Shown here: one piece after another, positions 13,630-58,591 of the stretch
How the letters are laid out: the number at the start of each line of letters is the position of its first letter
How positions within the stretch are numbered: position 1 is the stretch's first letter
NCBI RefSeq assembly: GCF_003315245.1
Contig: NZ_QNRT01000001.1
Location: 750,963 to 814,962 of the forward strand
Direction: 5' to 3'
DNA: 64,000 nucleotides
Source: Arenicella xantha
GTDB taxonomy: Bacteria; Pseudomonadota; Gammaproteobacteria; Arenicellales; Arenicellaceae
The notes under the pieces: generated by a model
Seen by the model: only the letters and a program-made list of their open reading frames with translations
Database searches by the model: none
Told to the model about the DNA's origin: nothing
Translations under genes and position numbers: made by a program

Positions 13630-21204
<7,575 letters not shown>

Positions 21205-40986: not shown

Positions 40987-41340
40987 TTAAAGTTGGGCGA
41001 ACAACAACTCGTCTTCGAGCAGAGCAAGTTCCTGCATTTCCAGCTCATGCAAGCTGATTTGCCCGTTGCTGCTGGCAACTGGAGCTGACGGCAATAACGT
41101 AGCCGACGGTAGCATTACCGTAAAAGCGACGGACAGCACAGCAAGACCTGCGAAACCGGCTGCAAATCGTTGCGCAATCAAATTCGGGAAACGCCAAATT
41201 CGACGTACTTCTTGAGGCTCTGACTGTTGCGACTGATTTTGCGTGGCCGCTAAAATCGAAGCTTGCAAAGCACTAGTATCCGGAACCGGCTCACGGGGAA
41301 TTCGATGCCAGACGACAGATGTGTTTGTTTCAATACTCAT
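40987..41340 (-). CDS. Small single-pass membrane protein, candidate anti-sigma factor
   Basis: Protein of 117 residues with a ~60-residue soluble N-terminus, one hydrophobic segment (~60-78, FAAGFAGLAVLSVAFTVML) and a short acidic, Leu/Glu-rich tail (LHELEMQELALLEDELL). No family is recognised. It starts 13 nt after the ECF sigma gene stop, and this topology and position are typical of anti-sigma factors; that role is inferred. Confidence 0.65.
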   Translation of the reverse strand: MSIETNTSVVWHRIPREPVPDTSALQASILAATQNQSQQSEPQEVRRIWRFPNLIAQRFAAGFAGLAVLSVAFTVMLPSATLLPSAPVASSNGQISLHELEMQELALLEDELLFAQL

Positions 41341-41353
41341 AGAACCCTCCGAT

Positions 41354-41965: not shown

Positions 41966-41979
41966 TAGGCGTATCTAAT

Positions 41980-42357
41980 CTACTGATCCGCTTTCGCTTC
42001 GCGTTCGGCGCGGCGCTCTTCACGCATTTGCTTGCGCATTTCACGATGCTTTTCGCGCATGATTTTGCCTGCTTCTCGATGCTCTTCAGGCGTCACATAG
42101 CCATCGCTATTCAGGTCCATGCTGGCAAAACGCTCTTCGGCACTCGCCATGTACTCGGCCCGATCCACCTGACCATCTTGGTTCGTATCAATGCGCTTAA
42201 GCATGTACTCATGCTTTTTATCTTTGCCACCACGGTCATGAGACTCTTTATGATGGCCTCTGCGGTCGCTTGGAGAATCCTCGCTTTGAGCAATGGCGAT
42301 ACCAGTAGCAGTAAGAGAGAAAGCGGCTAACAAGCTAATTAATGATTTGTTGTGCAT
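41980..42357 (-). CDS. Exported EF-hand calcium-binding protein
   Basis: Secreted or periplasmic protein of 125 residues. A signal peptide ends near residue 23 (GIAIA-QSED). Two EF-hand loops are visible: DTNQDGQVDRAE and DLNSDGYVTPEE, both with the Asp/Asn/Gly/Glu ligands in place. The rest is Lys/Arg/Glu-rich and helical (MREKHREMRKQMREERRAE). It is the first gene of the sigma-factor operon. A calcium-sensing role for that operon is inferred from the context. Confidence 0.88.
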   Translation of the reverse strand: MHNKSLISLLAAFSLTATGIAIAQSEDSPSDRRGHHKESHDRGGKDKKHEYMLKRIDTNQDGQVDRAEYMASAEERFASMDLNSDGYVTPEEHREAGKIMREKHREMRKQMREERRAEREAKADQ

Positions 42358-42553: not shown

Positions 42554-43348
42554 ATGACTATGCAAATTCAACTGAACCCAAACCTCGGCACCACCCAACT
42601 GGCGAGCGATTTTCAACAAAAGAAACGTCTTCGTATCGACAATATCCTAAGCGCTGACTCTGCCGAAGCTATTCTTGATTGCTTAAAAAATCAAACAGCT
42701 TGGCAGTTACTTTATAGCAATGCAGACAGCAGCCCAACGCGTCTCAACAATCAGCAATTAGAGCAAACAACTATTGAACAAATCAAAGCCACCCATGCAC
42801 AAGTCTACGCGCGCGCGACTTCGAGCTATCAATATTGGTATAAGTTCTTTCCGATGGTTGAGGCTATTACGACAGGCCAAGTAACCGAAAAATCGCCCCT
42901 CAATGAAGTTACAAAATTCTTAAACAGTGCGGAGTTCATTGGCCTAGCTCGCAAGATTACCGGTCATAGCAGCTTGGTAAAAATCGACCCACATGCAACG
43001 CTGTACGAACCCGGTGACTTTAAAAACCTACATGATGACATGCGCGATGATAAAGATGCTCGAGACAAAAGCATTCGACGGTACGCTGTCGTAATAGATT
43101 TCACCAAAAACTGGTCAGTTAATTGGGGCGGCGAGATGCAGTTTTACCCTGGACAAAACCCTACCACGTCAGAGAGTATTTTCCCTGGATTTAACGCTCT
43201 AACTCTTTTTCAAGTACCAACCTTACACCGAACCAATATGGTAGCGCCATATGCCGCCAAAGGTCGCTATGCGATTGCTGGCTGGCTGAGAGACGACCCG
43301 AATATCACTCGCTTGGATTTGGGCGATACACCGGTCGAAGCCAAATAA
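42554..43348 (+). CDS. 2-oxoglutarate/Fe(II)-dependent oxygenase (prolyl hydroxylase-like), copy 1
   Basis: Cytoplasmic 2OG-Fe(II) dioxygenase of 264 residues with no signal peptide. Iron ligands are H160 and D162 (NLHDDM) and H225 (TLHRTN), and R238 (KGRYAIAGW) probably binds 2-oxoglutarate. The fold and motif spacing resemble the prolyl-4-hydroxylase/Ofd1 group that acts on proteins. It is paralogous to the gene at 45961 along its whole length. The Asp/Asn hydroxylase gene follows 10 nt later. The substrate is unknown. Confidence 0.87.
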   Translation: MTMQIQLNPNLGTTQLASDFQQKKRLRIDNILSADSAEAILDCLKNQTAWQLLYSNADSSPTRLNNQQLEQTTIEQIKATHAQVYARATSSYQYWYKFFPMVEAITTGQVTEKSPLNEVTKFLNSAEFIGLARKITGHSSLVKIDPHATLYEPGDFKNLHDDMRDDKDARDKSIRRYAVVIDFTKNWSVNWGGEMQFYPGQNPTTSESIFPGFNALTLFQVPTLHRTNMVAPYAAKGRYAIAGWLRDDPNITRLDLGDTPVEAK

Positions 43349-43358
43349 ACCAAACGCG

Positions 43359-44558
43359 ATGACTCGAACAACCCTATTAGCGCAAGCCGACGCCGCGTTC
43401 GATGAAGGTCGACCAGTAGATGGCTTAGCGCTACTGCGTGAGCTTAATAAACATTATTCTGACGATGCAGCCAGCTGGCATCGTCAAGCCATTGTCGAAG
43501 AGCAAATAGGCTCGCCAGCTCAAGCTGGGCTGGCGCATTATCGCTGCATTGAAGTAGCTCCAAACAATGCTCTAGGATACCTTTATGCCGGTCATTGGCT
43601 GCAACGTCAGCAACAGACAAACGCGGCGGCAGCGCTATACTCGATTGCTCAAGATCTAGATGCCTCAATCTTACATCTAGCACACCATCAGCAGATATCT
43701 GAGCAAGCGAGACTCCGCTCTTCTGAAGCAAACCTCACGCTACGCCACGTACTGAGCAAACAGCACCGCGATCTTTGCGCTAAAATGATTGATGCGGAAC
43801 GAATAGCAGACGCCAAATGGGTACAAACAAACGACCAAGCTATTCATTTCAAATCGAAGAATTTTGCGCCTGAACTGTTTTACATTCCGTCACTTGCGGC
43901 CACACCATTCCACGAGTGTGCAGACTGTAATTGGGCCCAAGAGATTACTGAAAAATCTTCCGAAATCCAGCAAGAATTAACGCGCGCCTTGGAGCAAAAA
44001 CTATCGCAAGACAGCCTAAGACCTTATTTAAGTGGCGCGTTTGCCAAACATTCAGACTTAAGTGAACTAGCAAACTCAGCGAACTGGCTGGCAATGGATT
44101 TATATAAAAATGGCGAACTCAACACCCAAATTGCTGGACTATTTCCCACCACATTAAAAGCCCTGCAGTCAGCCCCTCACTACACACTTGATTCACAGCC
44201 ATTCGAGATCTTCTTTTCGTTGTTAAAGCCGGGACAACAGATTGCTCCACACTACGGACAATCAAATCATGCGTTAACCGCACACCTTGCATTGGATATT
44301 CCACCGAACTGTCACCTGACGGTCGACACTATTAACCGAGAATGGAAAGCCGGTGAGTTAATTCTATTTGATGATAGTTTTTTACATTCGGCACACAATA
44401 ACAGCGATCAAACGCGTGTAGTTTTGATTTTCTCAATCTGGCACCCAGACTTAAGTGAGAATGAGAAAACCGCTATTCAGCAATGCTTTCAAGCTCGCCA
44501 AGATTGGCTCAATCAACGACAATCCCAGATAAAAACCTTGCTTGCACTAACTGACTAA
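43359..44558 (+). CDS. TPR protein with aspartyl/asparaginyl beta-hydroxylase domain
   Basis: Protein of 399 residues. An N-terminal TPR-like region (~1-110) is followed by an Asp/Asn beta-hydroxylase domain (~200-375), a 2OG-Fe(II) oxygenase that hydroxylates side chains of proteins. Motifs are IAPHYGQSNHALTAHLALDI, then WKAGELILFDDSFLHSAHNN and TRVVLIFSIWHPDLS. The metal histidines are PHYG and FLHS. At the place where AspH-type enzymes have L-R-x-H this protein has L-T-A-H, so 2OG binding may differ. It probably shares a transcript with the 2OG oxygenase upstream, and its last 12 bp overlap the end of the opposing sulfotransferase gene. Confidence 0.83.
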   Translation: MTRTTLLAQADAAFDEGRPVDGLALLRELNKHYSDDAASWHRQAIVEEQIGSPAQAGLAHYRCIEVAPNNALGYLYAGHWLQRQQQTNAAAALYSIAQDLDASILHLAHHQQISEQARLRSSEANLTLRHVLSKQHRDLCAKMIDAERIADAKWVQTNDQAIHFKSKNFAPELFYIPSLAATPFHECADCNWAQEITEKSSEIQQELTRALEQKLSQDSLRPYLSGAFAKHSDLSELANSANWLAMDLYKNGELNTQIAGLFPTTLKALQSAPHYTLDSQPFEIFFSLLKPGQQIAPHYGQSNHALTAHLALDIPPNCHLTVDTINREWKAGELILFDDSFLHSAHNNSDQTRVVLIFSIWHPDLSENEKTAIQQCFQARQDWLNQRQSQIKTLLALTD

Positions 44559-45611
44559 ATTTAACCCGCCCGTCAACGTCGGGGTTAACGAAGTGGCAGG
44601 GTTATTATTTGTCAGCCAGCGGTAACCATTTTCCAAATCTGCGCCATAAAATGACTCAATAGCTTCATAAGTCGCATCACGTTTCTCTTTGCTAAACTGA
44701 TGCTGGCTATTCTTGGCGTCTTGAAACCTTACATCGTCAGTAGCGATAGCTTGCATTACATCGCCGTTCAAACCTAGCTCCAGAAATTGATTAACCGCCT
44801 CTAACGCACCCGCAGGGTCGGCGATTAATGTTTCTGCATAAAGCGATGCCATCTTATTACTCGGCACAAAATGCTTAAGCATTTGCTCGGCTTGCTCTAG
44901 CTGCAAACGCCACAGCGTTAACGTGACTTTAAGATCAGACATATGAATTACATCGGTAATCCTTAGCTGTGATAAATGCGGGAAATCACATCGCAAAAGA
45001 TCAAACATAGCACGAACTGTTTGCCGTGCATCTTCGCCTTTTTTTAGAGTTGAAAGCAAAAAATTTCTAGCGTCAGTGTAAAGCATCACAGCTTTACTTC
45101 GACTATTTACCTGCAGCAACTCAGGAATAATATTATTGACCGAATTGATCGGTTTAATAATCAACGTTTGGTCAGGCAATGCATGTTTTTGTAGCAAGCG
45201 CATAGCGAGAGAGGGTAAATGTCTGAAATCCAATTTAGTCGATGCCGACTGCCACTGCAATCGCTTGGCATTGGCCGCATCCAACAACAATTGCGGTTCA
45301 CGTAGACTTTGGCTAAAACCTTTCACATCAAGACATCGCGATAAGAATGTGGACCCACAATATGCAGTATGAAAAATGAAGTGTACTTTTGATTTAGGTA
45401 TCGTTGCACCGAGATCGTTTAAAGCATTAAGTAATTGCGACAACGGCACTGCTAGCGGTGCTTGATTCGAGTCTAGCGCGTCTCGATTAAGCCAAGTCGC
45501 ATTTGACAGGTCGCCATCAGCTATCGACACAAACTCAACGGCTTCAGTATCGAAGTTAAACTTATAGGCGAAATAACCTGGATCTTCTATTAAATCTCTA
45601 ACGCTTGTCAT
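44547..45611 (-). CDS. Sulfotransferase-like protein, copy 1
   Basis: Protein of 354 residues with a P-loop-like 5'-phosphosulfate-binding motif at ~78-92 (FIFHTAYCGSTFLSRCLD), then SLREPQLLLDA and LIIKPINSVNNIIPELL, as in a divergent branch of the sulfotransferase family. The usual RSGST is replaced by YCGST. No signal peptide, so it should act in the cytoplasm with PAPS. It is paralogous to the gene at 46728. Activity and substrate are unproved; the fold could also serve another nucleotide. Confidence 0.7.
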   Translation of the reverse strand: MTSVRDLIEDPGYFAYKFNFDTEAVEFVSIADGDLSNATWLNRDALDSNQAPLAVPLSQLLNALNDLGATIPKSKVHFIFHTAYCGSTFLSRCLDVKGFSQSLREPQLLLDAANAKRLQWQSASTKLDFRHLPSLAMRLLQKHALPDQTLIIKPINSVNNIIPELLQVNSRSKAVMLYTDARNFLLSTLKKGEDARQTVRAMFDLLRCDFPHLSQLRITDVIHMSDLKVTLTLWRLQLEQAEQMLKHFVPSNKMASLYAETLIADPAGALEAVNQFLELGLNGDVMQAIATDDVRFQDAKNSQHQFSKEKRDATYEAIESFYGADLENGYRWLTNNNPATSLTPTLTGGLNLVS

Positions 45612-45960
45612 ACCTTGGGGGGCCTCTAGTCAATCAGCTTCATAGAATCAGTGGTCAGGAGCAACGCTGACAATTTAGTATGAGATATTATGCCAGAACC
45701 CAAGCGTTAATTTGCTTGACCCAAGATTCGTTTGTAGATCAATTATAGTACACTCAATGGCGGCTAATTTTCGCTGGTCGTTGGGTTGCTGACTGCCCTG
45801 CAGCAACCTTATTAGCCTAGCGGATGAGCTAGCACCGCCAAGCCTAAACTGTTTTAATCGATGTTCGACAAAAATGTTTCGCTATATCAATACTCGCTGT
45901 TAAGAACCGGTGACGTAAACCCTCTAGCCACTTTGAGCGCATGACCATTACTGCTGAATT
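45612..45960. other. Divergent intergenic region between sulfotransferase 1 and oxygenase 2
   Basis: About 350 bp with the start of the minus-strand sulfotransferase on one side and the plus-strand 2OG oxygenase on the other, so it should contain both promoters. The only notable element is a 7-codon reading frame (45941-45964) that ends across the oxygenase start codon. No precursor-peptide gene with a convincing ribosome site was found. Confidence 0.55.
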
Positions 45961-46731
45961 ATGACAATTAGAATCAATCCAACACTCAATTTTGAATCGC
46001 TACATGCTCAATTTTCTGAGCAGAAAAAAATCAGAATTGAAAATTTTTTCACTTCGCAGACAGCCGAGTATATTGCTGATAATTTACAGCACACGACCCC
46101 TTGGCACATGGTTCACTCCGATGCCAAAGGGCTCCCAGTGCGGTATAACCCTGAGCAATTAGCGACGCTGAGTACAGCTCAAAAAGATGAGATCGATACA
46201 AAACTGCAGCAACTTGCAGCCGAACATTATCAATACAAGTACAAATTCTACCCCATCATTGACTCAATTAAAGATGGCACACTTGCAATAGACTCAATGC
46301 TCTATCAGATGGCAAGCTTCGTTAACGGCACAGAATTTATGCGTTTTGCTAGACAATTAACTGATGTCAGCTCGTTAGTGAAAATGGATCCACAAGCATC
46401 TTTATACGAGAGCGGCGACTTTCTAACTATGCATGATGACTCGAACTACCAGCGCCAAGCTGGTGACCATAGCTCTCGGCGTTTTGCCGTAGTGTTCGGT
46501 TTCACTAAACACTGGTCACCAAACTGGGGCGGGCAAACTGCATTTTACACCAGCGCCGATGCGGTCGAGTCGATTAGCTGGAACCCCGGCTATAACGTGC
46601 TAACGGTCTTTGAGGTGCCAGTACAACACTGCGTTAACTACGTAACCCCTTTTGCGACAAATGGTCGCTATTCAATTACCGGCTGGCTACGCGATGACCC
46701 GACAATTAGCCGACCTGACCTTGGAGACTAA
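45961..46731 (+). CDS. 2-oxoglutarate/Fe(II)-dependent oxygenase (prolyl hydroxylase-like), copy 2
   Basis: Paralogue (256 residues) of the 42554 gene. Iron ligands are H158 and D160 (TMHDDSN) and H223 (VQHCVN), with R236 (NGRYSITGW) for 2-oxoglutarate. The central WGG and FTKHWSPNWGGQTAFYT are shared with copy 1. A 7-codon frame (MTITAEL) ends over its start codon by ATGA overlap, which might couple translation. It converges on, and overlaps by 4 bp, the sulfotransferase gene at 46728. The substrate is unknown. Confidence 0.86.
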   Translation: MTIRINPTLNFESLHAQFSEQKKIRIENFFTSQTAEYIADNLQHTTPWHMVHSDAKGLPVRYNPEQLATLSTAQKDEIDTKLQQLAAEHYQYKYKFYPIIDSIKDGTLAIDSMLYQMASFVNGTEFMRFARQLTDVSSLVKMDPQASLYESGDFLTMHDDSNYQRQAGDHSSRRFAVVFGFTKHWSPNWGGQTAFYTSADAVESISWNPGYNVLTVFEVPVQHCVNYVTPFATNGRYSITGWLRDDPTISRPDLGD

Positions 46732-47765
46732 AGCGGGTTAGCTATTTGATCTGAGTAAGGGTATTTAAACTGCAATTGCTTGGCCCAAGGAATGATCACC
46801 TCTAGGCTTTCCGAGAATTGTGTTTGCGCCAACGAGTACTCTTCACTTCGGCTACTAGCGTCAAACGTTTGGCCTGGCGTTTTAGAATTAGCTGCCAGCG
46901 GTGCTTGCGCGAGCATTTTTTCAATATTTTCTTGCAAGGCATTACACTCAAAAAAACTAACTATACGAGTCAGCAAATCCTCAGGGGCGGCGAGTAGACG
47001 GTCGCAATGAAGCGAACTCACCTGCTTAGCATCCATCTTTTCAAACATTTCGAAAAATCGCTCAAGCTGGAGATGCCAGGTAATAGCCGTTACTTGTGAA
47101 TCAGTCATGCGCATTAACTTGGTGGCATCAAGGTGCTGTGCTTCAGCAGAATCCATCCGAAAAATGGTGAACAAATGGCGCGCAAAACCTCGACCCTGCT
47201 CACCTTTTTTTAAGGTAGATAACAAAAAGCTAGCTAAGTCAGAGTGCAAAAGCAGTGCTTTGCTCTGAGAGTGCGTTGCCATCAACGGCTGCATTATATT
47301 GTTGACAGTATTGGTTGGTTTAACCAGCACTGACTGTCCTTCGCCAAATGGTCGAAACAGCAACTTTGAGACAAGCCGATAAATAGTAGAGGCCCGGTTT
47401 GGGTCGGCAAGATAAGGGTGTTGAACACGCTGATAGTTTGCTAACGCCATCAACACCGCAGGTTCTTTAAGCGACACATTCGCCGACTCAAGATTTAAAC
47501 ACCGCGCTAATAAAGTTGAACAACAAAATGCAGTATGAAATACAAATCGTGGCGGACCACTGTTGATTGAGTCCGTGTAGGGTAAAACGTCTTGTAACGG
47601 CAGCACCATCGATGGCAACTGACGAGTGTCAAAACGATTATCCAAAAAACTACATGCCGCTAACGCCTGGTGATCGGTCTTTACAAACAACAGTGACCGT
47701 TCATCTAAATTAATTCCATGCAGAAACCAATTAGGGTTTTGCACGATATCGGCTGCAGTTGTCAT
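46728..47765 (-). CDS. Sulfotransferase-like protein, copy 2
   Basis: Protein of 345 residues, paralogous to the 44547 product. The nucleotide motif is FVFHTAFCCSTLLARCLN (~72-88), followed by SLKEPAVLMAL and VLVKPTNTVNNIMQPLM, the counterpart of IKPINSVNNI in copy 1. Both share a C-terminal half with WHLQLE and LHCDRLL. Cytoplasmic, no signal peptide. It may be co-transcribed after the two TPR-sulfotransferase genes (101-nt gap). Sulfotransferase activity is inferred from the family only. Confidence 0.7.
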   Translation of the reverse strand: MTTAADIVQNPNWFLHGINLDERSLLFVKTDHQALAACSFLDNRFDTRQLPSMVLPLQDVLPYTDSINSGPPRFVFHTAFCCSTLLARCLNLESANVSLKEPAVLMALANYQRVQHPYLADPNRASTIYRLVSKLLFRPFGEGQSVLVKPTNTVNNIMQPLMATHSQSKALLLHSDLASFLLSTLKKGEQGRGFARHLFTIFRMDSAEAQHLDATKLMRMTDSQVTAITWHLQLERFFEMFEKMDAKQVSSLHCDRLLAAPEDLLTRIVSFFECNALQENIEKMLAQAPLAANSKTPGQTFDASSRSEEYSLAQTQFSESLEVIIPWAKQLQFKYPYSDQIANPL

Positions 47766-47866
47766 ACGCTTAGTACCTTAGCGACCATTTAGCAACTATA
47801 TAGCTAGACAGACATTGTTTAGACAAGGCTCAACAACAGACGCTTGATGAACCTCAGATTCGCAAA

Positions 47867-49738
47867 CTAATCGTTATTTAGTTCAGGATAATACTCAGCG
47901 TAATGCTGCCATCGACCAATGCGTTTGTCTGCGATTGGCTGTCGAACTTGCATTTCACTAAAGGTGAAACTCTTATTAATAGATTGATGAAAATCCAAAT
48001 AAGAGTCATTCCACTCAAAACCACAGAACTCAACAAGTTGCTTTGCGTAATGCGATGGATTTTGCACCAAGTCCTCGTAGTTAAGATCCATTAAGCGCGG
48101 TGAGTTCATGCTAGACCAATGAGCCATCATACGCTCACACTCATCATAAAAATGGCTTAGATCTTCCCAACGATTTGCATAGTTGTGACCTGGCGCAAAG
48201 GCATGAGAATATATAGAAAAGCACACGTCTCGTTTGTCGCGATGCATTTGAATAACTCGGGCATCAGGAAATAGCTTGTGTATCAAACCCACATGACGAA
48301 AGTTATGCGGTAACTTATCGGTAAATATCGGCTTGCTAATCTCTGGTAATTTTTCCAAATATAATTTACGCAATTCTGCCCATTGGTGTGGCGTGACATC
48401 TATCGCATCAGCCAATTTTCCGGTCATGGTTTTCTGATGAAAATCAGCCGCAACGTACTCCATTGCCTCCTGCTCACCGGCATTAAATACTTGAACATTT
48501 TGACCGAGAATACGCTCCACTAAAGTGGTACCACTGCGCGGCATGCCGACAATGAAAATTGGTTGTATGGCACGAGATTCCTTATCTAACTTAGCATCTG
48601 ATTGGTCGAACACATCGCGATCAAAATTCTTAGTAATGCGCTCTACCATCTGCGTCACATGCTCTTGCTGATAGACGGTGTTGGTTCCTTGTAAAAATAG
48701 GTGCTGTACCTCATTAGCCTCTTTGAAGGACTTTGCAGCTTGCTGATAGTCACCAATACGGTCTTGCATATGTGCCAAAGCGTAGTTCAACAAGCCCCTG
48801 TGTTGATGGTTCAGCATCGCTATTTCTTCAAGCTTTGCGAGTTGCTTGGAAAGCAATTCAATTAATTCCTTGAGCTGTTCATCCGTCGCCAACTCAGCAC
48901 GCATTGACCATGCTTCGCCATGATTAGGCATACGTTGGATCGCCTTATCCAAAGACTCGTTAGCCTTTACATAGTCACCATCCAACCGCGCGACTTTAGC
49001 CTGCATCACAAATATCTGCGGACCATCTTCACCAAGTTCCATTGCGTGTTTAATCGCTTTCTCGCTACGTTCAGACTGCTGCGCCATCAACAGTAAATCA
49101 GCGAAACGGAGATAATCCTCGGCAGTGGGAGAGACCAACCGCAGGTAACGCTCAAAGGCACTGATTGCAGTTGGGAAATCACGTAGCTTTCCGGCAGTAA
49201 CTGCCAAATTGTTAGCGATACTCGAATCATCAGGAAGCTCGTCGTTAAGTCGTCGCAATATATTGACTGCTTCTCGCCAATTCGAAACGCCTGCTTGCGC
49301 ACGGGCTAAAATAATCTGGTCTGCGGGCGTCAATACTTTCAAGCGCGACAGTAATTGGATCGCGGCCGGCGGCTCACCCAAACTGAGTAGAAAGTCTGCA
49401 ATGCGTGAGCAAAACACGGGATCATCCTTACAAAACTTGGTGGCGTGTTGTAGTTGGATCAATGCCTGACGCCGATTTCCGACACGATGATAACAGTGCG
49501 CTAAATTAACCGCGATATCGACCGCGTTAGGCTCTAGCTCCTGAGCTCGCCCAAGCGATTTAAATGCTTCGTCAAGCCGGTCTCGCTGCATTGCAACGCT
49601 GCCAAGACCATAGTGCGCGGATGCGGAGTCAGGCTCGAGTTCAACGGCAGCTAGAAAAGACTGCTCAGCCTGATCAACCTTTCCGGCTCTAATCGCATCT
49701 TCAGCGTCTTTAAGAAGTTGGTCTATGTTTTGGTCCAC
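47867..49738 (-). CDS. TPR-sulfotransferase fusion protein, copy 1
   Basis: Protein of 623 residues: ~8-10 TPR repeats (residues ~1-340, e.g. SASAHYGLGSVAMQRDRLDEA) joined to a sulfotransferase domain (~390-615). The 5'-phosphosulfate loop is QPIFIVGMPRSGTTLVERIL, and the 3'-phosphate region includes HRDKRDVCFSIYSHAF. The C-terminal VRQPIADKRIGRWQHY is characteristic of TPR-linked sulfotransferases. TPRs normally hold protein or peptide partners, so a polypeptide substrate is plausible, as for the tyrosylprotein sulfotransferases. Part of the minus-strand run after the TonB receptor. Confidence 0.87.
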   Translation of the reverse strand: MDQNIDQLLKDAEDAIRAGKVDQAEQSFLAAVELEPDSASAHYGLGSVAMQRDRLDEAFKSLGRAQELEPNAVDIAVNLAHCYHRVGNRRQALIQLQHATKFCKDDPVFCSRIADFLLSLGEPPAAIQLLSRLKVLTPADQIILARAQAGVSNWREAVNILRRLNDELPDDSSIANNLAVTAGKLRDFPTAISAFERYLRLVSPTAEDYLRFADLLLMAQQSERSEKAIKHAMELGEDGPQIFVMQAKVARLDGDYVKANESLDKAIQRMPNHGEAWSMRAELATDEQLKELIELLSKQLAKLEEIAMLNHQHRGLLNYALAHMQDRIGDYQQAAKSFKEANEVQHLFLQGTNTVYQQEHVTQMVERITKNFDRDVFDQSDAKLDKESRAIQPIFIVGMPRSGTTLVERILGQNVQVFNAGEQEAMEYVAADFHQKTMTGKLADAIDVTPHQWAELRKLYLEKLPEISKPIFTDKLPHNFRHVGLIHKLFPDARVIQMHRDKRDVCFSIYSHAFAPGHNYANRWEDLSHFYDECERMMAHWSSMNSPRLMDLNYEDLVQNPSHYAKQLVEFCGFEWNDSYLDFHQSINKSFTFSEMQVRQPIADKRIGRWQHYAEYYPELNND

Positions 49739-50008
49739 AGTACATTCCTATTCGAATTGTGCGATCAGCATCTGTTCGCTAAATAATCTGGTTGTTTGCC
49801 CAAGGCACTATTTTGTTCGGTCTCACCGTGAATGCGGCATTGAACGCGATAAGCACTTGCCAAGCCATAAGTAACGCCAATATAAGGCGCTAAATTAGAC
49901 TAATATTATACAGCCTTCACAGGCGATTTACCGCTAAGAGCGCAACCATATCAATGATCGCAAGCAAGAACAATCTGCTCAAGAATAAAGCACTCAGGCG
50001 AGCTCAGA
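49739..50008. other. Gap between the two TPR-sulfotransferase genes
   Basis: A 270-bp AT-rich gap, long for a single operon. On the minus strand there is a perfect TATAAT at 49910-49905, ~165 nt before the downstream gene, but no good -35, so an internal promoter is only possible. Confidence 0.4.
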
Positions 50009-51652
50009 TTATTCTGCAAATTCCGCTATCAGATCAGCGATATTATTCTGATAATTTTTCCACCGACCCGAGCTGGACTGGTACAACGGTTGGCGCACTT
50101 GCCAAATACTTGCGGTTTTTACTCTGTTTTTCAAACGATGAAAATCAAGACACTGCGGCTCCCATGGCAGATCTAAAAACGCCAATAGATCTCGAACGAT
50201 TGGCTCGGGATCAACCACCAGTCGATCATAATCGAGGGCATACACGTTCTCCGGAAACAACTTCCTCCAATGCGCCATTAGTCGCAAGTATTGCTTATAG
50301 TAATGGGCTATGTCGGTCAAGTTTGCCGCATAACTCATTGACGCCGCCGTTCTAAGAAAGTAGATGGACAGGCAATTATCGCGTGGATTTCGATTAGTCT
50401 GGATAAACTTCGCGCGTGGAAACAATGTCTTAATTAAGCCAATATGCAAAAAATTATCGGGCCGCTTATCGGTAGGTCGTGCATCTCCCGGAAAGGCCTT
50501 CGCCAAGTCGGCTAAATAGTCATTAGCCATTTCCTGTAATGCGGAAAACTCTATTTTTTCCAGAGCAACCGGATAAGGATCAATATTGGAACGCGCTAAT
50601 TTATAAAAGAAGTCTCTCTCACCACCAGCCGTCAGACTTGAGTGCGACGCTAATACTTGCTCAGCAAGTGTAGAGCCTGACCGAAACATGCCACAAATAA
50701 AAATCGGGCTAGCATCAGAAGTCGGCGCATGACGATTAAACCAATCTTCTGTGAAGAAATTAATATTGTCGTCGACAATCTGCTCCTGCCGCTCCTTGCT
50801 ATAAAGGGGGTTATTGGAACGATCCAAATCATTGGCCGCTGCATAGTGTTTGAAAGCATCATCGAACTCACCACAATCATCTAGAGCCTTACCCAATGCG
50901 TAGTGAATATTCGTGCGGCTAAAATCATCCATTGATGAGTCAACCAAGGCAGTTTGCAACTTGGAAATAATCGGCGCACTGGGGTCAAGTATCCGCTGAG
51001 CCTCGGCGAGCCGAGCAAGTGCGCGATGATTACTCGGATCAAACTCTACAATTTTCTCGTAAAGCTTAGCGGCATGGGCCTTATCACCTTCTTCCTCATA
51101 CAAGGTTGCTAAGTTAAACATTGCCGGCGTATATGATGGCAATTGATTTAGTGCGCGCTCCAAACAACTTTTTGCTTGATCTTCTTGCCTTAAATGCTCT
51201 GAGTATATAACCGCCATATTGGTCAACACTTCTTCTGGTTGACTTATGCCGTGCTCCAATGCCTGCTGATAATTTTCGATTGCGCGTGCATATTCGCCAG
51301 CCTGCTTTAAGTAGTAAGCCGCATTGTAATACCCATCAGCTTGAGACGGGTTACTCCGTAAAAATTCCAAGTAGCATACAGCCGCTTGCATCCATCGCTG
51401 CTGCTTGACATACAAATTTGCACGGGCTTCATAGTATGCTAATTTTGACGGATAGAGCGTGCACAGCTGCTCTAAATAGTTTGCAGCAGCGTCCAAATCT
51501 TGAGCTTGAATACATACATGAGCCAATCGGCTTAACACGGCTTCACGCTGATATCCTTGCTTAAGAAGATCTTGATAGAGCGAATATGCTAGCGCTAAAT
51601 TACCACTTTGATGCGCACTTTGGGCTTGTGCCCATAAAGCATCTAAATTCAT
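50009..51652 (-). CDS. TPR-sulfotransferase fusion protein, copy 2
   Basis: Protein of 547 residues from the ATG at 51652, which overlaps the methyltransferase stop as ATGA (51652-51649), so translation is probably coupled. An in-frame start at 51679 would lie inside the methyltransferase gene. TPR repeats occupy ~1-290 (SQADGYYNAAYYLKQAGEYARAIENYQQAL). The sulfotransferase domain begins at ~316 with PIFICGMFRSGSTLAEQVLA and has NRNPRDNCLSIYFLR and VRQPLYQSSSGRWKNY. Paralogous to the 47867 product. Substrate unknown. Confidence 0.87.
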   Translation of the reverse strand: MNLDALWAQAQSAHQSGNLALAYSLYQDLLKQGYQREAVLSRLAHVCIQAQDLDAAANYLEQLCTLYPSKLAYYEARANLYVKQQRWMQAAVCYLEFLRSNPSQADGYYNAAYYLKQAGEYARAIENYQQALEHGISQPEEVLTNMAVIYSEHLRQEDQAKSCLERALNQLPSYTPAMFNLATLYEEEGDKAHAAKLYEKIVEFDPSNHRALARLAEAQRILDPSAPIISKLQTALVDSSMDDFSRTNIHYALGKALDDCGEFDDAFKHYAAANDLDRSNNPLYSKERQEQIVDDNINFFTEDWFNRHAPTSDASPIFICGMFRSGSTLAEQVLASHSSLTAGGERDFFYKLARSNIDPYPVALEKIEFSALQEMANDYLADLAKAFPGDARPTDKRPDNFLHIGLIKTLFPRAKFIQTNRNPRDNCLSIYFLRTAASMSYAANLTDIAHYYKQYLRLMAHWRKLFPENVYALDYDRLVVDPEPIVRDLLAFLDLPWEPQCLDFHRLKNRVKTASIWQVRQPLYQSSSGRWKNYQNNIADLIAEFAE

Positions 51653-52563
51653 GCGGGCTTCTGCCCAGACACCAGCCATCCGAGTAAATAAAGCGACTCT
51701 TGGCGGTCTATAACGATAGGCTCGAAACTAGCTGAAATACCGGCATCAGACAGCAGACCTTGCTGCCATGCAAGCATTTCGTCCTCACTGCGGCCGGCGG
51801 CAAGTAACTGCTGAAGCCGAGACAACTCGGAGCGAACCCGCAAGTTCATAGCAACGCCGAGCTCGATTGACTCTTTTGGTCGCAGCTGCAAGCCACTGGC
51901 TATTTTCTCTATACCCAAAAACACTTGTCCAGATACAGCTTCAGTTCTTACTATATCTTGCTCTAGGTAAGCTGCACCCAATTGCTCTAACTCGTTAAAA
52001 TCCGTCTCCCGACGCAGCACCTTAATTAAGGTATCAAGCAAACCATTAACTTGTGTTAGCTGCTCAAGTTCGGTCACTTTAACGCGCGACGAGGCAATAA
52101 TATCGCTCTGTGAATGATGCACCACATAGCGGAAACGACCGCCAGGCTTTAGCAACGACAGCACCGTCGAACTAGCTTCTGAGAAGCCAGCATATTCGAT
52201 ACCGAATTGACTAGTGATGGCGTCAAAAGTCGATAACTCGAATGGCATCTCAAAGAGATCAGTATCCGCGTGAAAACGAACCGCAGCTAGATTTTCCTGA
52301 CCGCTCAAATAGCTTGTTGGATCAATACTCGCTTTATCCACCGCGTCAATATCTAGGTCGCTCCGCACCGCTAACATTGCACTCGCCACCGCCCCGTTAC
52401 CAGTCGCCAAATCCAAAACCTTGGCGCCGGAGTCTAACGACTGAGCAAATGAACGCCATAACTCATTCAAAACCGTCTGGTCTTGATCGGTCGCTTGCGC
52501 AACACAACTATGCAATCGGTCAGCTGACCAATAAAGTGACCATGGGTTTTGTTCTTGACTCAT
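51649..52563 (-). CDS. Class I SAM-dependent methyltransferase
   Basis: Cytoplasmic methyltransferase, 304 residues. The SAM site is VLDLATGNGAVASAML (~49-64), the acidic end of strand 2 is in DIDAVDKAS, and motif IV region is FDAITSQFGIEYAGF followed by LLKPGGRFRYVVHH. The target atom and molecule cannot be told. It is coupled to the TPR-sulfotransferase gene by a 4-nt overlap and follows the TPR-2OG gene by 91 nt, so it is probably part of the same modifying set. Confidence 0.85.
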   Translation of the reverse strand: MSQEQNPWSLYWSADRLHSCVAQATDQDQTVLNELWRSFAQSLDSGAKVLDLATGNGAVASAMLAVRSDLDIDAVDKASIDPTSYLSGQENLAAVRFHADTDLFEMPFELSTFDAITSQFGIEYAGFSEASSTVLSLLKPGGRFRYVVHHSQSDIIASSRVKVTELEQLTQVNGLLDTLIKVLRRETDFNELEQLGAAYLEQDIVRTEAVSGQVFLGIEKIASGLQLRPKESIELGVAMNLRVRSELSRLQQLLAAGRSEDEMLAWQQGLLSDAGISASFEPIVIDRQESLYLLGWLVSGQKPA

Positions 52564-52654
52564 ATTCTCTCTCTTTAGATGTTCTTTATGGCAGGACTAC
52601 TGGCTGCATGGGTATGGATCTCGGGTCTTAAATCTAACAAGGTATCGATACCTG

Positions 52655-54505
52655 TTAGCCGACTGGCAGGATATCAAACGGAGCTGTCATACGGTAGTCT
52701 GAATCTGTACCACTGAACGGGAAGGTGCCATGCCAACAATAAGATGGGAATAACACCACCATACCTGGCTTTGGTCGAACACACATTTCAATCACATCAC
52801 GGTCACCGAGCTGCAGCGGACTTTCACCGAACTTAATACACCCTTGATTGTCGGCCGCAACGTCAACAGACTCTGTTTCTGGGTCTATGTCAATCGAAGA
52901 GGACTCATGCATTCCGCGAGGAATTGTAATGTAGCAGGACGAGCTAATCCATCCTTCAGGATGGACATGATTTACATGAAACCCATTTGCCCGCAGCTTG
53001 ACCGACCAAGAGCCAGAAAAATCAAACTGCTCTCGTTTGCGCGACAAAAATGGATGATTGAGGTCATCAGGTAAGCCAGAAATATAATCTCGAACAATTT
53101 TCTGCAAGCATTCCTTTAACGCCTTAATCGCAGGATGTGGGCTATGCAATAGTCGAGATGCGGTTTGTGTGCCATTGCGAAGGGTCTGCAACAAAGGCTC
53201 CCTTTCGGTTCGATGCATTGGTATTAGTGCATTTTCGACGTCAGTTAAAAATGCCGCTAGGTTATCGTAGCCAGCGGGTACAGCTATTTTGTAGACTTGA
53301 ACAAACTTCTCATATTGCATCAACCAATGGTAGCGCTTATCGCCGGATAAACGCCAAATCAAACTTTGCAATGCCCAGTTCAATTGACAATTCGGCGCCT
53401 CGATAAAAGCTTGGTTAAGCAAGTCTTGCGCTTGAGCATATCGCGACAGCAAGATATCAATTTTAATTAATTGCTGGGCCACATCCTTTGCATACTGGAT
53501 CTCTAAACTTCGAGTCATCATGTGGTAGGCCGTACTCAAGTCGCCCATCTCTGCGGCAATTGTTCCTTGCAAGGCCAGCAGATTGTGATTATCTAAAGCG
53601 CCAGAGGCATAGCGTTCCAGCACCTGCTTGGCCTGTGTGACGTGCCCTGCACGGAATAGCAATGATGCATAGGACTCAATTAAACTAAGATTGCCCGATA
53701 ACTGACTAAGGGCCGAACGATAACTTTCACCGAATTCACTCGCAAACTCACTTTCCCATAACATAGCGTTAAATCGCTCATGCAATTCAATATGGTCGGG
53801 ATTCTGCTGTAATGCGCGCTCAAAAATTTGAATCGACTGCTGCGTCTTACCCGCCTCATGGAGGCACAAAGCTAAACTTTGAGATACTTCAGGACGAGGT
53901 CCCGCTAACTCGAAAGCTTTATGGTAACACTCGAGAGCTTTTGTTAATTTTCCCTGCAAATGAAACACCAAACCCAAATTATGCCAACCATTTACCTTTT
54001 GGGGATCAATCGCAAGCACGGACACATACAGGGACTCGGCCTTTTCAAGATCGCCTATTAAACGCTGCGCATCAGCCAGGCCAATCAGAGCTGAAGAGTC
54101 GTTCGGCGCTAAATCCAGAGCGCGCTGATACGATTCGAGCGCCGCTTCATAATGGGATTGAGCTTGCAAACAAATGCCTAGATTGCGCCATGCCTGCAAA
54201 TATTTTGGATTGAGCTCGACAGCTCGCCGATAGTGCGCTTCGGCATCTGAATAACTCTCTTCAGATTTCAATAAATTTGCCAGATTGTTAAGCACCTCTG
54301 GCTGATGCTCATTCAATTCTAAACTCTGCTTAAAGTGCTGCTTAGCGCGCGCCTTATCGCCAAGCGCTTTGTAACTAAGCGCCAGGAGGTGTGCCACATC
54401 AGCATTATTAGGAACCTGCGCTGCTATCGACTGCAGCTTAGAAATCGCTTGCTGTGGCTGTTGGTTTTGAAGGTCTTGATAGGCCGATTTTAGTAAATCC
54501 TGCAT
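52655..54505 (-). CDS. TPR protein with C-terminal 2OG-Fe(II) oxygenase domain
   Basis: Protein of 616 residues. About seven TPR units fill ~1-260 (AWRNLGICLQAQSHYEAALE), then a helical middle, then a C-terminal 2OG-Fe(II) oxygenase domain (~490-612) of the TIGR02466/PF13759 type. Visible motif: GFHVNHVHPEGWISSSCYI (~H510-H515 metal region) and VLFPSYCWHGTFPFSG with the distal His (~592); an Arg in DYRMTAPF may bind 2-oxoglutarate. No signal peptide. It lies between the TonB receptor and the methyltransferase on the same strand. Substrate unknown. Confidence 0.82.
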   Translation of the reverse strand: MQDLLKSAYQDLQNQQPQQAISKLQSIAAQVPNNADVAHLLALSYKALGDKARAKQHFKQSLELNEHQPEVLNNLANLLKSEESYSDAEAHYRRAVELNPKYLQAWRNLGICLQAQSHYEAALESYQRALDLAPNDSSALIGLADAQRLIGDLEKAESLYVSVLAIDPQKVNGWHNLGLVFHLQGKLTKALECYHKAFELAGPRPEVSQSLALCLHEAGKTQQSIQIFERALQQNPDHIELHERFNAMLWESEFASEFGESYRSALSQLSGNLSLIESYASLLFRAGHVTQAKQVLERYASGALDNHNLLALQGTIAAEMGDLSTAYHMMTRSLEIQYAKDVAQQLIKIDILLSRYAQAQDLLNQAFIEAPNCQLNWALQSLIWRLSGDKRYHWLMQYEKFVQVYKIAVPAGYDNLAAFLTDVENALIPMHRTEREPLLQTLRNGTQTASRLLHSPHPAIKALKECLQKIVRDYISGLPDDLNHPFLSRKREQFDFSGSWSVKLRANGFHVNHVHPEGWISSSCYITIPRGMHESSSIDIDPETESVDVAADNQGCIKFGESPLQLGDRDVIEMCVRPKPGMVVLFPSYCWHGTFPFSGTDSDYRMTAPFDILPVG

Positions 54506-54649
54506 CGCACAAACCTGGGAATTAATAGTTGCGACATAATCCTGCGCTAACCATGTTGGATGTTAGCTACCTTATGTCGTCAAATAACTAGCTTAATTGC
54601 AAGCACTTCGTCTCCGAATCGTGCAACGCTGCTACTCAATCAAAACAAA

Positions 54650-54673
54650 AACGGCGAGCCTAAGCTCGCCGTT
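54650..54673 (-). terminator. Intrinsic terminator of the TonB receptor gene
   Basis: Perfect 10-bp stem (AACGGCGAGC / GCTCGCCGTT) with a 4-nt loop, followed on the minus strand by a TTTTTGTTTTG tract. It lies 40 nt after the receptor stop, so most receptor transcripts should end before the TPR genes. Confidence 0.88.
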
Positions 54674-54710
54674 CTCGTTACTTCTTAGTACTGCGTCTAA
54701 CTACTAAAGA

Positions 54711-57542
54711 CTACCGAAAACGGAAGTTAGCACTTAGGAATACGCGTGGACCAAGCAAATCATACGTTGATGGGAACGTATTACCTTGCTCTTGCTGATC
54801 ACCAATTTGAGTTGGCTCAGTGTCTAGTATGTTGTTAACACCGAAGTTCACTGAGAAGTCATCGCTGAACGCATACGTTGCAGCAAGATCTAAGTAAATT
54901 TCAGCATCAAGCTTATCAACTAAAATATCCGCACGGTTTGCATCTTGAGTAGCAATAGTATCATCGTCAACTGCACTTAAATAACGAATCAAACCAGTGA
55001 ATCCCCAAGGACCAGTATTCCAAGTTACACGAGTATTAACGATTAGCTCATTCAACGGAGAGCCACAAGTGTTACCAAAACTACCGGCACACTCATTAGT
55101 TCCAGCTAATTCAGCAACTGGAGTCACGTCAAAATCAAGCAAGTAAGTAGCTTTACTGTTGATTTCTAGAGTGGAACCTTCACCACCAAGACCGAAGTCC
55201 AGATCTTTAGTCCACCCAATGTTCAAGTCAACACCAGATGTTTCAAGTGATGAAATGTTCTCGTTAAGAACATTAACAATACCAACTTGACCGTCTGCAC
55301 GGCGAGTAACCGCTTGACAGAATGCTGAATTAATATCTTTAACTTGGTTGTAACAGATATCCAATACGTTGTTAACACTACCACCTAAGATGCTGATCGC
55401 GTTTTCAATTTGAATATCGAAATAATCAACAGTGATGTCTAGGTTTTCAGTAGGTTGGAAAACCGCACCCAAAGTAAATGTATCTGACTCTTCTTCAGAA
55501 AGATTAGTGTTACCACCAAACAAACCTTGAATCTGTGTATTTGCTTGAGAGAACACGCCAACTTGGCTCGCCGCTACACCAGTAGCCGCGCAAAGTGCTG
55601 CGTCAGTTGACGCTGGATCAAACCCGTCAGCTGAACATGGGTCAGTTGCACCTGGGAAGCCATTACCGCCACCGCTAAACAACTCAGCTACGTTTGGCGC
55701 ACGAACCGCACTTTGGAAACCTGCACGAAAACGCATTTTGTCAGTTGGAGCAAAAGACAATGCAGTCGCATACGAACTTACACCACCAATGTTAGAGTAG
55801 TCCGCATAACGATATGCGCCCCACGCTTCAACTTGGTCAGTAAGAGGCACTCGAATCTCAGTAAACAGCTCAGTAACGTCGAATCCACCAACAGTTGGGT
55901 TACCAGCGTTAAAACCAGCTACATCACCTGACGATAAAGCTGTATCAGGTTGGAAACGAGAGAAATCTTTACGGTATTCCAAACCAGCAACAACACCGAT
56001 TTGCTGATCAGTGGTTGGAAGTGATCCAACTAAGCCTGATACAGAACCTTGCCATACTTCTTGCGTAATGCTGGTTACGTTAATCGCACCAATACGAATG
56101 AAATCAGCTGCAGCTGCAGAGATATTGCCTTCACCGAAAATATTCAGTGGCACACAACCATTTGATGGGTCTTGACAAGCCAAACCATCATCAGTCACTA
56201 ATGCAGCTTGAAGTGAACGTGAACGTGAAATGTTACCGTTTTGAACTTGGATACGGTCTAGTACTGAACGACTGTAGTAACCGTCATAGCTCCAAACGTC
56301 GTTAATTTCGCCACTCAAGCCAACCAAAATACGGTTACCATCACGAGTATCGAGAGACTGACGTGAACCAACTTCAACCATACGACGACCAATGTAAGAA
56401 AGGGTCGCATTGTCATTACCGTTGATTACGCCGTCGCCATTTGTATCAGAACGAATGCCGTTCAAAGCAGACTGTACATCTGGTGCAAAGAATGGGCTAT
56501 CCGGGTTAACTGGCAAAGTAGTAAACCATGGAGTTGGAGCCAACTCTGAATCTACTTGGTTGCGCGAGAATGCTAACTCACTGTACAGTCTGGCTGATTC
56601 AGTCAGATCGTAGTGAGCCATTGCACTGATCAAATAACGCTCTTGTGGCAACTGTAAAAAGTTATCAGGAGCGTAGTTGAACGCATCACTTGAGGTATAA
56701 GGAGCGCCTGAGCCATCAGTATTAAAACGACCGAGAGTTTGGCCATTTGGTAGTGTTGGACCACCGAAGACACGTGTGCCAGGGATACCAGAAGAACCAC
56801 CAGGAACTAGTGCAGTATTGTCACTATTCTCAGTTAGAGCAAATTGCGAAAAATCACGCTCGCCTTGATAAACCGCCTCACGTTTTGAGAAGCTGGTGTA
56901 AACAGTAGCGTTACCACGACCGTCATCAAAGTTTCCGCCCATGGTCAAATCGATATTGACTTTCTCGGCATCGCCTTCGCTTGCAACATCATACAAACCG
57001 CTGATTTCAACACCTTCGAAATCATCAATAAGTTGGAAGTTTACAACCCCAGCTAATGCGTCAGAACCGTATACCGCTGATGCACCACCAGTTGTTACGT
57101 CAACCTGCTTGATCAATGAACCTGGAATAGAGTTAAGATCCACAACACCTGTTTGCGTTGCTGGGATGTAACGTCGACCATTTACAAGAACAAGCGTTCG
57201 AGCGGTACCCAAACCACGTAAATCAACACGTGCAGTACCATCACCTGGGTTATTCGAACTTGGTCCGAATGAAGGCAATGTTTGTGGCAATTCAGCCAAT
57301 TTTTGCTCAACGTTCAGGTTACCTGAAATTTTGAACTCTTCGCCAGAAACGACTGATACAGGAGTAACAGACGCTAAATCAGGACGTCGGATACGTGAAC
57401 CAGTAACGATTACTTCTTCAAGTGCCGTTGCTGTCTCAGCATCCTGTGCGAAAGCGACATTGCTCATGCCGGCAGACATCATAGTCGCTGAACTGACCGC
57501 TAGTGCAATCGCACTTTTTCTATATGGATTTTTGTAATTCAT
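54711..57542 (-). CDS. TonB-dependent outer-membrane receptor
   Basis: Large outer-membrane receptor of 943 residues. A signal peptide ends near residue 32 (VAFA-QDAE), a TonB box lies at 42-48 (EEVIVTG), the plug domain has VDLRGLGTARTLVLVNGRRY and GGASAVYGSDALAGVVNF, and a 22-strand-type barrel ends in FLSANFRFR. Several Cys pairs occur in extracellular-loop-like regions (e.g. CQDPSNGC, CAGSFGNTC). Length and plug resemble receptors for peptides or carbohydrates rather than siderophores, but the ligand is unknown. It is flanked by the modifying-enzyme cluster and by a peptide transporter/peptidase pair. A good AGAGGAAAGAG ribosome site precedes the ATG. Confidence 0.94.
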   Translation of the reverse strand: MNYKNPYRKSAIALAVSSATMMSAGMSNVAFAQDAETATALEEVIVTGSRIRRPDLASVTPVSVVSGEEFKISGNLNVEQKLAELPQTLPSFGPSSNNPGDGTARVDLRGLGTARTLVLVNGRRYIPATQTGVVDLNSIPGSLIKQVDVTTGGASAVYGSDALAGVVNFQLIDDFEGVEISGLYDVASEGDAEKVNIDLTMGGNFDDGRGNATVYTSFSKREAVYQGERDFSQFALTENSDNTALVPGGSSGIPGTRVFGGPTLPNGQTLGRFNTDGSGAPYTSSDAFNYAPDNFLQLPQERYLISAMAHYDLTESARLYSELAFSRNQVDSELAPTPWFTTLPVNPDSPFFAPDVQSALNGIRSDTNGDGVINGNDNATLSYIGRRMVEVGSRQSLDTRDGNRILVGLSGEINDVWSYDGYYSRSVLDRIQVQNGNISRSRSLQAALVTDDGLACQDPSNGCVPLNIFGEGNISAAAADFIRIGAINVTSITQEVWQGSVSGLVGSLPTTDQQIGVVAGLEYRKDFSRFQPDTALSSGDVAGFNAGNPTVGGFDVTELFTEIRVPLTDQVEAWGAYRYADYSNIGGVSSYATALSFAPTDKMRFRAGFQSAVRAPNVAELFSGGGNGFPGATDPCSADGFDPASTDAALCAATGVAASQVGVFSQANTQIQGLFGGNTNLSEEESDTFTLGAVFQPTENLDITVDYFDIQIENAISILGGSVNNVLDICYNQVKDINSAFCQAVTRRADGQVGIVNVLNENISSLETSGVDLNIGWTKDLDFGLGGEGSTLEINSKATYLLDFDVTPVAELAGTNECAGSFGNTCGSPLNELIVNTRVTWNTGPWGFTGLIRYLSAVDDDTIATQDANRADILVDKLDAEIYLDLAATYAFSDDFSVNFGVNNILDTEPTQIGDQQEQGNTFPSTYDLLGPRVFLSANFRFR

Positions 57543-58107: not shown

Positions 58108-58591
58108 AAATCATCACCAATCCGACTAATCAAACCACTCGAACGATCCAATTCCAAACCAACAAGGTGGCACCAACCCAACTGATATTACAACACCCAA
58201 TCCGCACCGGCAAAAACGACTCAAATGCGCACCACGAAAGGAATGCCGCACCTCAAGCAAACCTCATCGCCACCGACTACACATTCAGCAATCCACGTTA
58301 ACTAATATTTCCATTATGGGTTTCACACTGATCAAATTCAAAAACACACACATTTCACATCTCACGACGGATTGACTCAAGCCAGCACCCGAGCGCAGAG
58401 AAAGTAACGCGGCAAACTGCGTGATTTGTGATATTTTCTTGCTGTTGCGGTTCGATCAACGCCGATTTTGGCTCGCGATGATTGTACTAACCTGCTTTCG
58501 CTCTGGGTCTTATCTCACTTGCTATTCGAGAAAATTGAAGACTGCTGAATGCGCGAAAGCTTTGAATTTAAAAATAAAAATAGGTAAACCT

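Follow-up and report, generated by a model that had tools for sequence, protein, structure and literature searches.

A recurrent receptor-linked cassette of putative protein-modifying enzymes in Arenicella xantha

A ten-gene cassette with a TonB-dependent receptor

The window analysed here (the whole stretch of DNA under study, 64,000 nucleotides) comes from Arenicella xantha and lies within contig C1 of a 4.44 Mb genome assembled in 29 contigs. Between positions 42554 and 57542 it holds ten intact and adjacent genes (A to J) encoding three 2-oxoglutarate (2OG) oxygenases, one enzyme of the Asp/Asn beta-hydroxylase (AspH) type, four sulfotransferase-like proteins, one methyltransferase and one TonB-dependent receptor (TBDR). 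Judged from sequence, these genes form a recurrent receptor-linked cassette of putative modification enzymes, for which we propose a substrate and a chemistry. The same ten genes had been listed in an initial annotation of this DNA, and all its open reading frames (ORFs) are found in place, intact and in the families it described. Domains of the cassette proteins were called by profile searches with Pfam and NCBIfam. We use TPR-ST for the tetratricopeptide repeat (TPR) sulfotransferases and STn for the TPR-free sulfotransferase-like family of C and E.

42554..43348, plus strand: A, 2OG-Fe(II) oxygenase, 264 aa; 2OG-FeII_Oxy_4 (7e-17), weak Ofd1 match
43359..44558, plus strand: B, Asp/Asn beta-hydroxylase-type enzyme with degenerate N-terminal TPR, 399 aa; Asp_Arg_Hydrox (4e-39); starts 10 bp after A
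44547..45611, minus strand: C, STn sulfotransferase-like protein, 354 aa; convergent with B, 12 bp overlap
45961..46731, plus strand: D, 2OG-Fe(II) oxygenase, paralogue of A, 256 aa; 2OG-FeII_Oxy_4
46728..47765, minus strand: E, STn paralogue of C, 345 aa; convergent with D, 4 bp overlap
47867..49738, minus strand: F, TPR-sulfotransferase, 623 aa; TPR and Sulfotransfer_3 (1.6e-43)
50009..51679, minus strand: G, TPR-sulfotransferase, 556 aa; TPR and Sulfotransfer_3 (1.9e-39); 31 bp overlap with H
51649..52563, minus strand: H, class I S-adenosylmethionine-dependent methyltransferase, 304 aa; weak match (3e-6), plus relatives
52655..54505, minus strand: I, TPR and 2OG-FeII_Oxy_5 oxygenase, 616 aa; oxygenase domain 5.9e-18
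54642..54680, minus strand: terminator-like hairpin with T-rich 3' side between J and I, about 40 nt past the J stop
54711..57542, minus strand: J, TBDR with signal peptide, 943 aa; Plug and TonB_dep_Rec barrel

A and B form a plus-strand pair. J is the first gene of a minus-strand row that continues with I, H, G, F and E; C and D are in between. A crude hydropathy check and inspection found a signal peptide on J and none on A to I, as the initial annotation had it for the enzymes. It had also counted four enzymes with TPRs: F, G and I carry clear repeats, while the TPR of B itself scores poorly (E 0.086), although relatives of B carry clear ones (7e-12 in the AspH of L034). TPR or Sel1 repeats are found on sulfotransferase, AspH and 2OG enzymes of the cassette and its relatives.

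The hairpin between J and I is supported by RNA folding (-26.7 kcal/mol, z -7.0) and was not listed by a consensus terminator scan. With this hairpin about 40 nt past its stop codon, J probably has a strong transcript of its own, from which little read-through reaches the enzyme genes.

Predicted activities of the cassette enzymes

All four sulfotransferase-like assignments could be retained, F and G by their Sulfotransfer_3 domains and C and E by more remote evidence. C reaches 21.7 bits to Sulfotransfer_1, just below the cut-off of 22, and E has no match above any Pfam cut-off. The two are paralogues (30 % identity). A ten-member STn profile finds solved sulfotransferases (2zq5 at 1.9e-5, CurM at 0.019 and TPST2 at 0.97), and an AlphaFold model of C, made with 49 relatives, has a pLDDT (predicted local distance difference test) of 94.4 and a sulfotransferase fold. 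The PDB folds closest to this model are human TPST1/2 (best E 4.2e-6, template modelling (TM) score about 0.4-0.5), with other sulfotransferases close below. Across 50 sequences S87, T88, E105 and K153 of C are invariant, corresponding to a P-loop-like 5' motif and a candidate catalytic residue. Given the paralogy, the profile matches and the modelled fold, we count C and E as sulfotransferase-like; by this model-based prediction they are remote sulfotransferases. F conserves G398-x-x-R401-x-G403 and E422 as a candidate active site. A supply of the sulfate donor 3'-phosphoadenosine 5'-phosphosulfate (PAPS) is possible, since an adenosine 5'-phosphosulfate (APS) kinase gene is found in the genome.

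The candidate active-site residues of A (H160/D162/H225/R238) are kept in at least 90 % of 18 family members, and those of B (H298/H343/R353) and I (H513/H515/H592/R605) are conserved. We take the active-site roles of these residues, and of those in F, from general knowledge. B has a 2OG fold domain with a conserved His pair and Arg and is a predicted Asp/Asn beta-hydroxylase.

TPR-sulfotransferase genes adjoin receptor genes across the genus

The association of sulfotransferase and receptor was examined independently of C and E, using matches to Pfam Sulfotransfer_3 (PF13469) in 18 genomes of the genus as anchors. From these matches we took 40 stretches, none of them at the cassette site or in the window's genome, in descending order of score between 197 and 114 bits. 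Several of the stretches are short contigs, and two partial matches with scores in this range (G005:C379 and G008:C145) were skipped. In 38 of the 40 stretches the anchor is matched by the TPR-ST profile (in two of them weakly, at 57 and 63 bits). A TBDR was called by a match at 1e-12 to one of 37 TBDRs of the window's own genome, and 20 EamA loci of the genus, from the upper part of the list with some passed over, served as control.

A TBDR is the very next gene at 25 of the 38 TPR-ST loci compared to none of the 20 controls (Fisher 4.5e-7), and lies within 5 kb at 29 of 38 compared to 4 of 20 (Fisher 6e-5), with the reservation that the 38 loci are not independent events and orthologous loci are counted separately in both tests. 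Among the 9 loci with no TBDR within 5 kb, 5 are at contig ends, and the same number holds among the 13 loci with no adjacent TBDR. For the window's own genome, two of three TPR-STs outside the cassette adjoin a TBDR (L028 and L029).

By group, the pairing is close to one-to-one. Using 28 pairs with a receptor longer than 400 aa, two pairs from the window's genome and F with J, we compared six sulfotransferase groups with eight TBDR groups: four sulfotransferase groups pair with a single TBDR group each and two pair with two, and the gene orientation is constant inside each group pair where recorded.

AspH-type genes occur at 10 of the 40 fetched loci, 8 of which also have a TBDR. Both activities are also found on one chain: L067:3223-5067 is an Asp_Arg_Hydrox domain fused to a Sulfotransfer_3 domain, and in the window's genome a 634-aa frame at C3:374030-375568 is matched by both domains. 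The fusions and the AspH genes at TPR-ST loci suggest that hydroxylation and sulfation act in series.

Receptor and enzyme set at one chromosomal site

The cassette site is bounded on one side by genes for a thiolase, an aspartic protease, an extracytoplasmic function (ECF) sigma factor and an EF-hand protein, and on the other by those for a POT-family transporter and an M2 peptidase. The same site was recognised in 13 of the 18 genomes, 12 of which have at least one modifier there; in G001, G004, G005, G008 and G010 it is seen from the left side only. The stretch of G014 has POT on the right and lacks the ECF, EF-hand and thiolase genes; because its left flank is the aspartic protease followed by the downstream genes as in other genomes, we place its cassette at the same site. 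The content of the site is as follows.

G000: A to J
G007: as A to J, without E
G001, G012, G014, G008, G010: subsets with TPR-2OG5, methyltransferase, TPR-ST, AspH and OG4 (G001 also C)
G015: another receptor (32-37 % identical) with methyltransferase, two TPR-ST, STn and OG4
G005: OG4 and TPR-ST up to the contig end
G004: two TPR-ST, receptor and methyltransferase
G011: short AspH, receptor, OG5-type enzyme and methyltransferase
G009: receptor with methyltransferase only
G017: receptor with a small protein of the c6 group (described below), no modifier

The POT stretches of G002, G013 and G016 have no cassette in view (a receptor lies beyond an ABC transporter at the contig end of G013), and neither site anchor was found in G003 and G006. 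From species to species, a different receptor at this site goes along with a different enzyme set, and the number of enzymes ranges from none to nine. Orthologues of J (at least 68 % identical) and of I are present in the same 7 of 18 genomes, and G011 also holds a 29 % relative of I beside a 35 % TBDR. In G001, G008 and G010 the receptor is mostly or fully on another contig than the enzymes, so that the J-I link is wholly or partly deduced there.

Related neighbourhoods outside the genus

A scan of contigs anchored on C and E gave 102 stretches encoding relatives, of which 80 loci were kept; four of them (L049, L082, L086 and L110) are probably the same as contigs of G001, G012, G007 and G008. 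They come from Gammaproteobacteria (Lysobacter, Colwellia, Arenicella), Alphaproteobacteria (Sphingomonas, Marinicaulis, Hyphomonadaceae) and three metagenome-assembled genomes of Phycisphaerales or Planctomycetota. Together with the window, and using our own profiles with weak TBDR matches counted, the 81 loci include 47 with a TBDR, 44 with a TPR-ST, 23 with an AspH-type gene and 55 with some 2OG or AspH enzyme. For the 53 loci of at least 18 kb these numbers are 36, 35, 12 and 36.

The type of oxygenase changes with lineage: OG5 and OG3 in many Lysobacter loci, TauD and AspH in many sphingomonads, and OG4, TPR-2OG5 and AspH in the relatives of the window. In a tree, J groups with the Sphingomonadales receptors of L052 and L069, and both of these loci carry two OG4, TPR-2OG5 and AspH (L069 also a methyltransferase). 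The same families adjoin TBDRs in other Alpha- and Gammaproteobacteria as well. The initial annotation had proposed to compare gene neighbourhoods, and the homologues turn out not to be scattered and independent but to adjoin TBDRs at several sites of the genus. Taken together, the neighbourhood comparison supports a functional link of the enzymes and the receptor.

A proposed substrate and chemistry

The initial annotation saw in these genes a modification system for a cytoplasmic polypeptide, perhaps the receptor or an uncharacterised peptide. Its receptor linkage is borne out by the neighbourhoods; that the receptor, or any polypeptide, is the substrate we can only infer, and no precursor peptide was found in the gaps of the cassette (see below). 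A polypeptide substrate is plausible because TPRs are fused to sulfotransferase, AspH and 2OG domains, the modelled fold is nearest to TPST and no carrier-protein or nonribosomal peptide synthetase match exists among the ten cassette proteins.

We tentatively favour, at somewhat less than even chances, that the cassette enzymes modify their cognate receptor before export. While still unfolded and in the cytoplasm, the receptor precursor (or just a segment of it) would be bound by the TPR enzymes. Hydroxylation of side chains would fall to the 2OG and AspH enzymes and sulfation of hydroxyl groups (probably in part newly made ones) to the PAPS-dependent sulfotransferases, and the methyltransferase would add a further mark. 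The modified receptor would then be exported via Sec and subsequently the beta-barrel assembly machinery. Such marks may change the charge of surface loops or of the plug and thus tune ligand binding, or else the sensitivity to phage and bacteriocins using the receptor. The terminator past the receptor gene would keep the enzymes at a catalytic rather than a stoichiometric level.

Several observations weigh against the receptor as the target. The linked TBDRs have no residue or motif by which a modified site could be recognised. Tyr is no more frequent in eight linked representatives (one from each receptor group) than in 28 unlinked TBDRs of the window's own genome (six halogenase- or cupin-linked ones were kept apart), and Tyr in acidic context is rarer in the linked ones, at 0.046 versus 0.136 per 100 aa (p 0.027); sulfation of receptor Tyr at acidic motifs looks unlikely from these sequences. 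TBDR similarity and enzyme-set similarity do not co-vary across classes (Spearman -0.05, 3372 of 5000 permutations as high), nor significantly when only linked loci are used (0.18, 452 of 5000). In this test, two outgroups, G013C54, L050 and the loci of unclear class L072, L074 and L076 were dropped, 65 rows were collapsed to 28 representatives, and the AspH of the window, which is just beyond the 9 kb limit, was labelled by hand. Since the co-variation is not significant, the match between TPR-2OG5 and a TBDR clade is a pattern and not a proven rule. Furthermore, several J-like receptors elsewhere, in several genomes, have no modifiers, nor does the receptor at the cassette site of G017; no TBDR is near four TPR-ST loci of the genus that are not at contig ends (two of them weak profile matches) or beside the own-genome TPR-ST L027; and many STn relatives have no TBDR nearby and are often paired with a TauD-type oxygenase. 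The negative substrate tests and the modifier-free J-like receptors lower the probability of the receptor as substrate, not that of the linkage.

A candidate residue signature of the TPR-2OG5-linked receptors (e.g. Y215, C818/C826) consists of few columns, is confounded with clade and was not used.

The pairing of STn with TauD is the second recurrent one of this family: the two genes adjoin in stretches with no TBDR at L025, L079, L080, L084, L094, L096, L102, L108 and L109, divergently in all but L102. At the Marinicaulis/Parvularcula-type loci L036, L038-L040, L044 and L045, STn lies by two CoA_trans genes (two of them Pfam-checked) with no linked TBDR.

Alternative substrates and known systems

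One alternative is that the enzymes make a peptide, ribosomal or not (a metallophore, for instance), which leaves the cell and is re-imported via the TBDR, as in methanobactin or TBDR-linked lasso operons. We consider this unlikely, though it has precedents. As described in part of PMC3621798, methanobactin operons can join a TBDR (MbnT), an ECF sigma factor with its sensor (MbnI/R) and, in some, a sulfotransferase (MbnS) thought to act on the peptide. Shared with the cassette are the TBDR next to an ECF sigma gene and, in our reading of the cassette, the modification of a polypeptide. A table within PMC10040529 gives, for two sphingomonad genera, clusters of lasso B2, sulfotransferases, aspartyl beta-hydroxylase, PqqD and Asn-synthase whose numbers are near-consecutive. 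Unlike methanobactin operons, the cassette has four sulfotransferase-like proteins, several 2OG enzymes and TPR domains, and its gaps hold no recognisable precursor: across six relative stretches no ORF of 12-110 aa is clearly conserved in the six cassette gaps and one flank gap, although a precursor may lie elsewhere in the genome. The one strong cross-species match was an ORF lying over the J-I hairpin. The ten cassette proteins have no match to MbnB/C, lasso B1/B2, radical SAM or YcaO maturases, nor to a leader peptidase or exporter.

About equally unlikely, in our estimate, is that the substrate is another exported protein, such as a surface or periplasmic partner of the receptor, with the receptor a mere partner or the transport output. 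Two observations point this way. At L021:9543-14371 (C2 of the window's genome), away from any cassette, the genes after an STn and OG4 pair encode a radical SAM/SPASM enzyme and a secreted Chlam_PMP-repeat protein, with a TBDR a few kb on. The c6 group (e.g. L150:10518-11129) comprises small proteins that lack any above-cut-off Pfam match and whose N-terminus is export-like. It is found in 14 of 89 clustered stretches; in sphingomonads its members are often close to linked TBDRs, and one adjoins the G017 receptor that has no modifier. No other export-type family was seen recurring over linked loci of different orders, in comparisons that did not include a systematic export search.

It is improbable that the substrate is an envelope lipid, lipid A or a glycan, with a hydroxylase like OlsC or LpxO and sulfotransferases acting on glycans or lipids. 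B does match the NCBIfam equivalogs OlsC (5e-18) and LpxO (6e-13), far under their cut-offs (65.2 bits of 450 and 48.5 of 500). Each of the 18 genus genomes holds a separate AspH-type gene that is shorter and higher-scoring and could, by sequence, be the lipid enzyme; the TPR domains, and the ten proteins having no glycosyltransferase or lipid-biosynthesis match, also argue against this possibility. Just as improbable is a gathering of unrelated genes at an insertion hot spot beside receptor genes, which would fit the clear variability of the site between species and the negative cross-class co-variation but not the recurrence of the receptor-sulfotransferase pairing at other sites, with constant orientation per group pair, and in other classes.

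The cassette can also be compared with the tyrosylprotein sulfotransferases TPST1/2 and the bacterial sulfotransferase RaxST. It resembles TPST1/2 in that the STn fold is nearest to TPST, and the TPR-STs have a Sulfotransfer_3 domain with a conserved Glu after the P-loop. It differs in that STn is about 12-17 % identical to them, at the TM score given above, and the linked receptors have no enrichment of acidic-context Tyr.

Candidate side-chain modifiers also adjoin TBDRs in another form. Of the 38 Plug-positive TBDRs encoded by the window's own genome, 6 (L118, L120, L134, L135, L143, L146) have a Trp_halogenase (five cases) or Cupin_8 gene next to them, and at two of these SapC is present too. 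The chemistry differs from that of the cassette, and the two kinds of set never shared a locus among the own-genome TBDR loci examined. BrvH, a flavin halogenase whose natural substrate is described as unknown in part of PMC5945002, may belong to the TBDR-linked type; that part gives no TBDR context. It is conceivable, though we think it rather unlikely, that TBDRs are a widespread covalently decorated class, many types of which have their own set of cytosolic enzymes acting before export and altering ligands and the use by phage and bacteriocins. Such sets would perform TPR-guided hydroxylation, O-sulfation and methylation here and perhaps Trp halogenation elsewhere.

Among the top matches listed in searches of open-licence PMC literature we found no description of TBDR-linked sulfotransferase/2OG cassettes, no covalently modified TBDR turned up, and no characterised member of such cassettes was found; what we drew on of PMC3608174 describes no relevant modification.

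The cassette is a bounded enzyme set with one obvious candidate substrate, and its site offers for contrast receptors accompanied by anything from no enzyme to nine. To our knowledge, little has been described in bacteria of proteins with sulfated or hydroxylated side chains. Should the receptor be the target, a post-translational layer would be added to uptake specificity and to the sensitivity to phage or bacteriocins, and the same idea could account for orphan halogenases beside TBDRs.

Flanking genes and other observations

The genes next to the cassette are listed below.

40987..41340, minus strand: short protein that its position alone suggests as an anti-sigma factor; no FecR match
41354..41965, minus strand: ECF sigma factor (profile match)
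41980..42357, minus strand: EF-hand protein, exported by inspection of its N-terminus
58421..60094, plus strand: POT-family peptide transporter (3.9e-59)
60129..61943, plus strand: M2 peptidase, an ACE-like dipeptidyl carboxypeptidase (8.6e-223)

G012 has an Opp-type oligopeptide transporter between the receptor and POT, and in G014 an M3 oligopeptidase adjoins the receptor. With the POT transporter and the M2 peptidase, these genes put the receptor in a probable peptide-uptake locus.

The nearby ECF sigma gene resembles FecI/FecR systems. This type of signalling was rejected, as J has no N-terminal signalling domain (Plug and barrel are its sole matches up to E 0.01) and the neighbour of the sigma gene is not matched by FecR. 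A defence system was likewise rejected, PADLOC giving generic 2OG, TPR, PrimPol and methyltransferase-like matches only.

The genes for the ECF sigma factor, its short partner and the EF-hand protein (40987-42357) are kept at the left edge of the site whatever the content of the cassette, with the ECF gene present in 11 of 18 genomes. Elsewhere in the window, a single ORF of 2524 aa occupies 13630-21204 on the minus strand.

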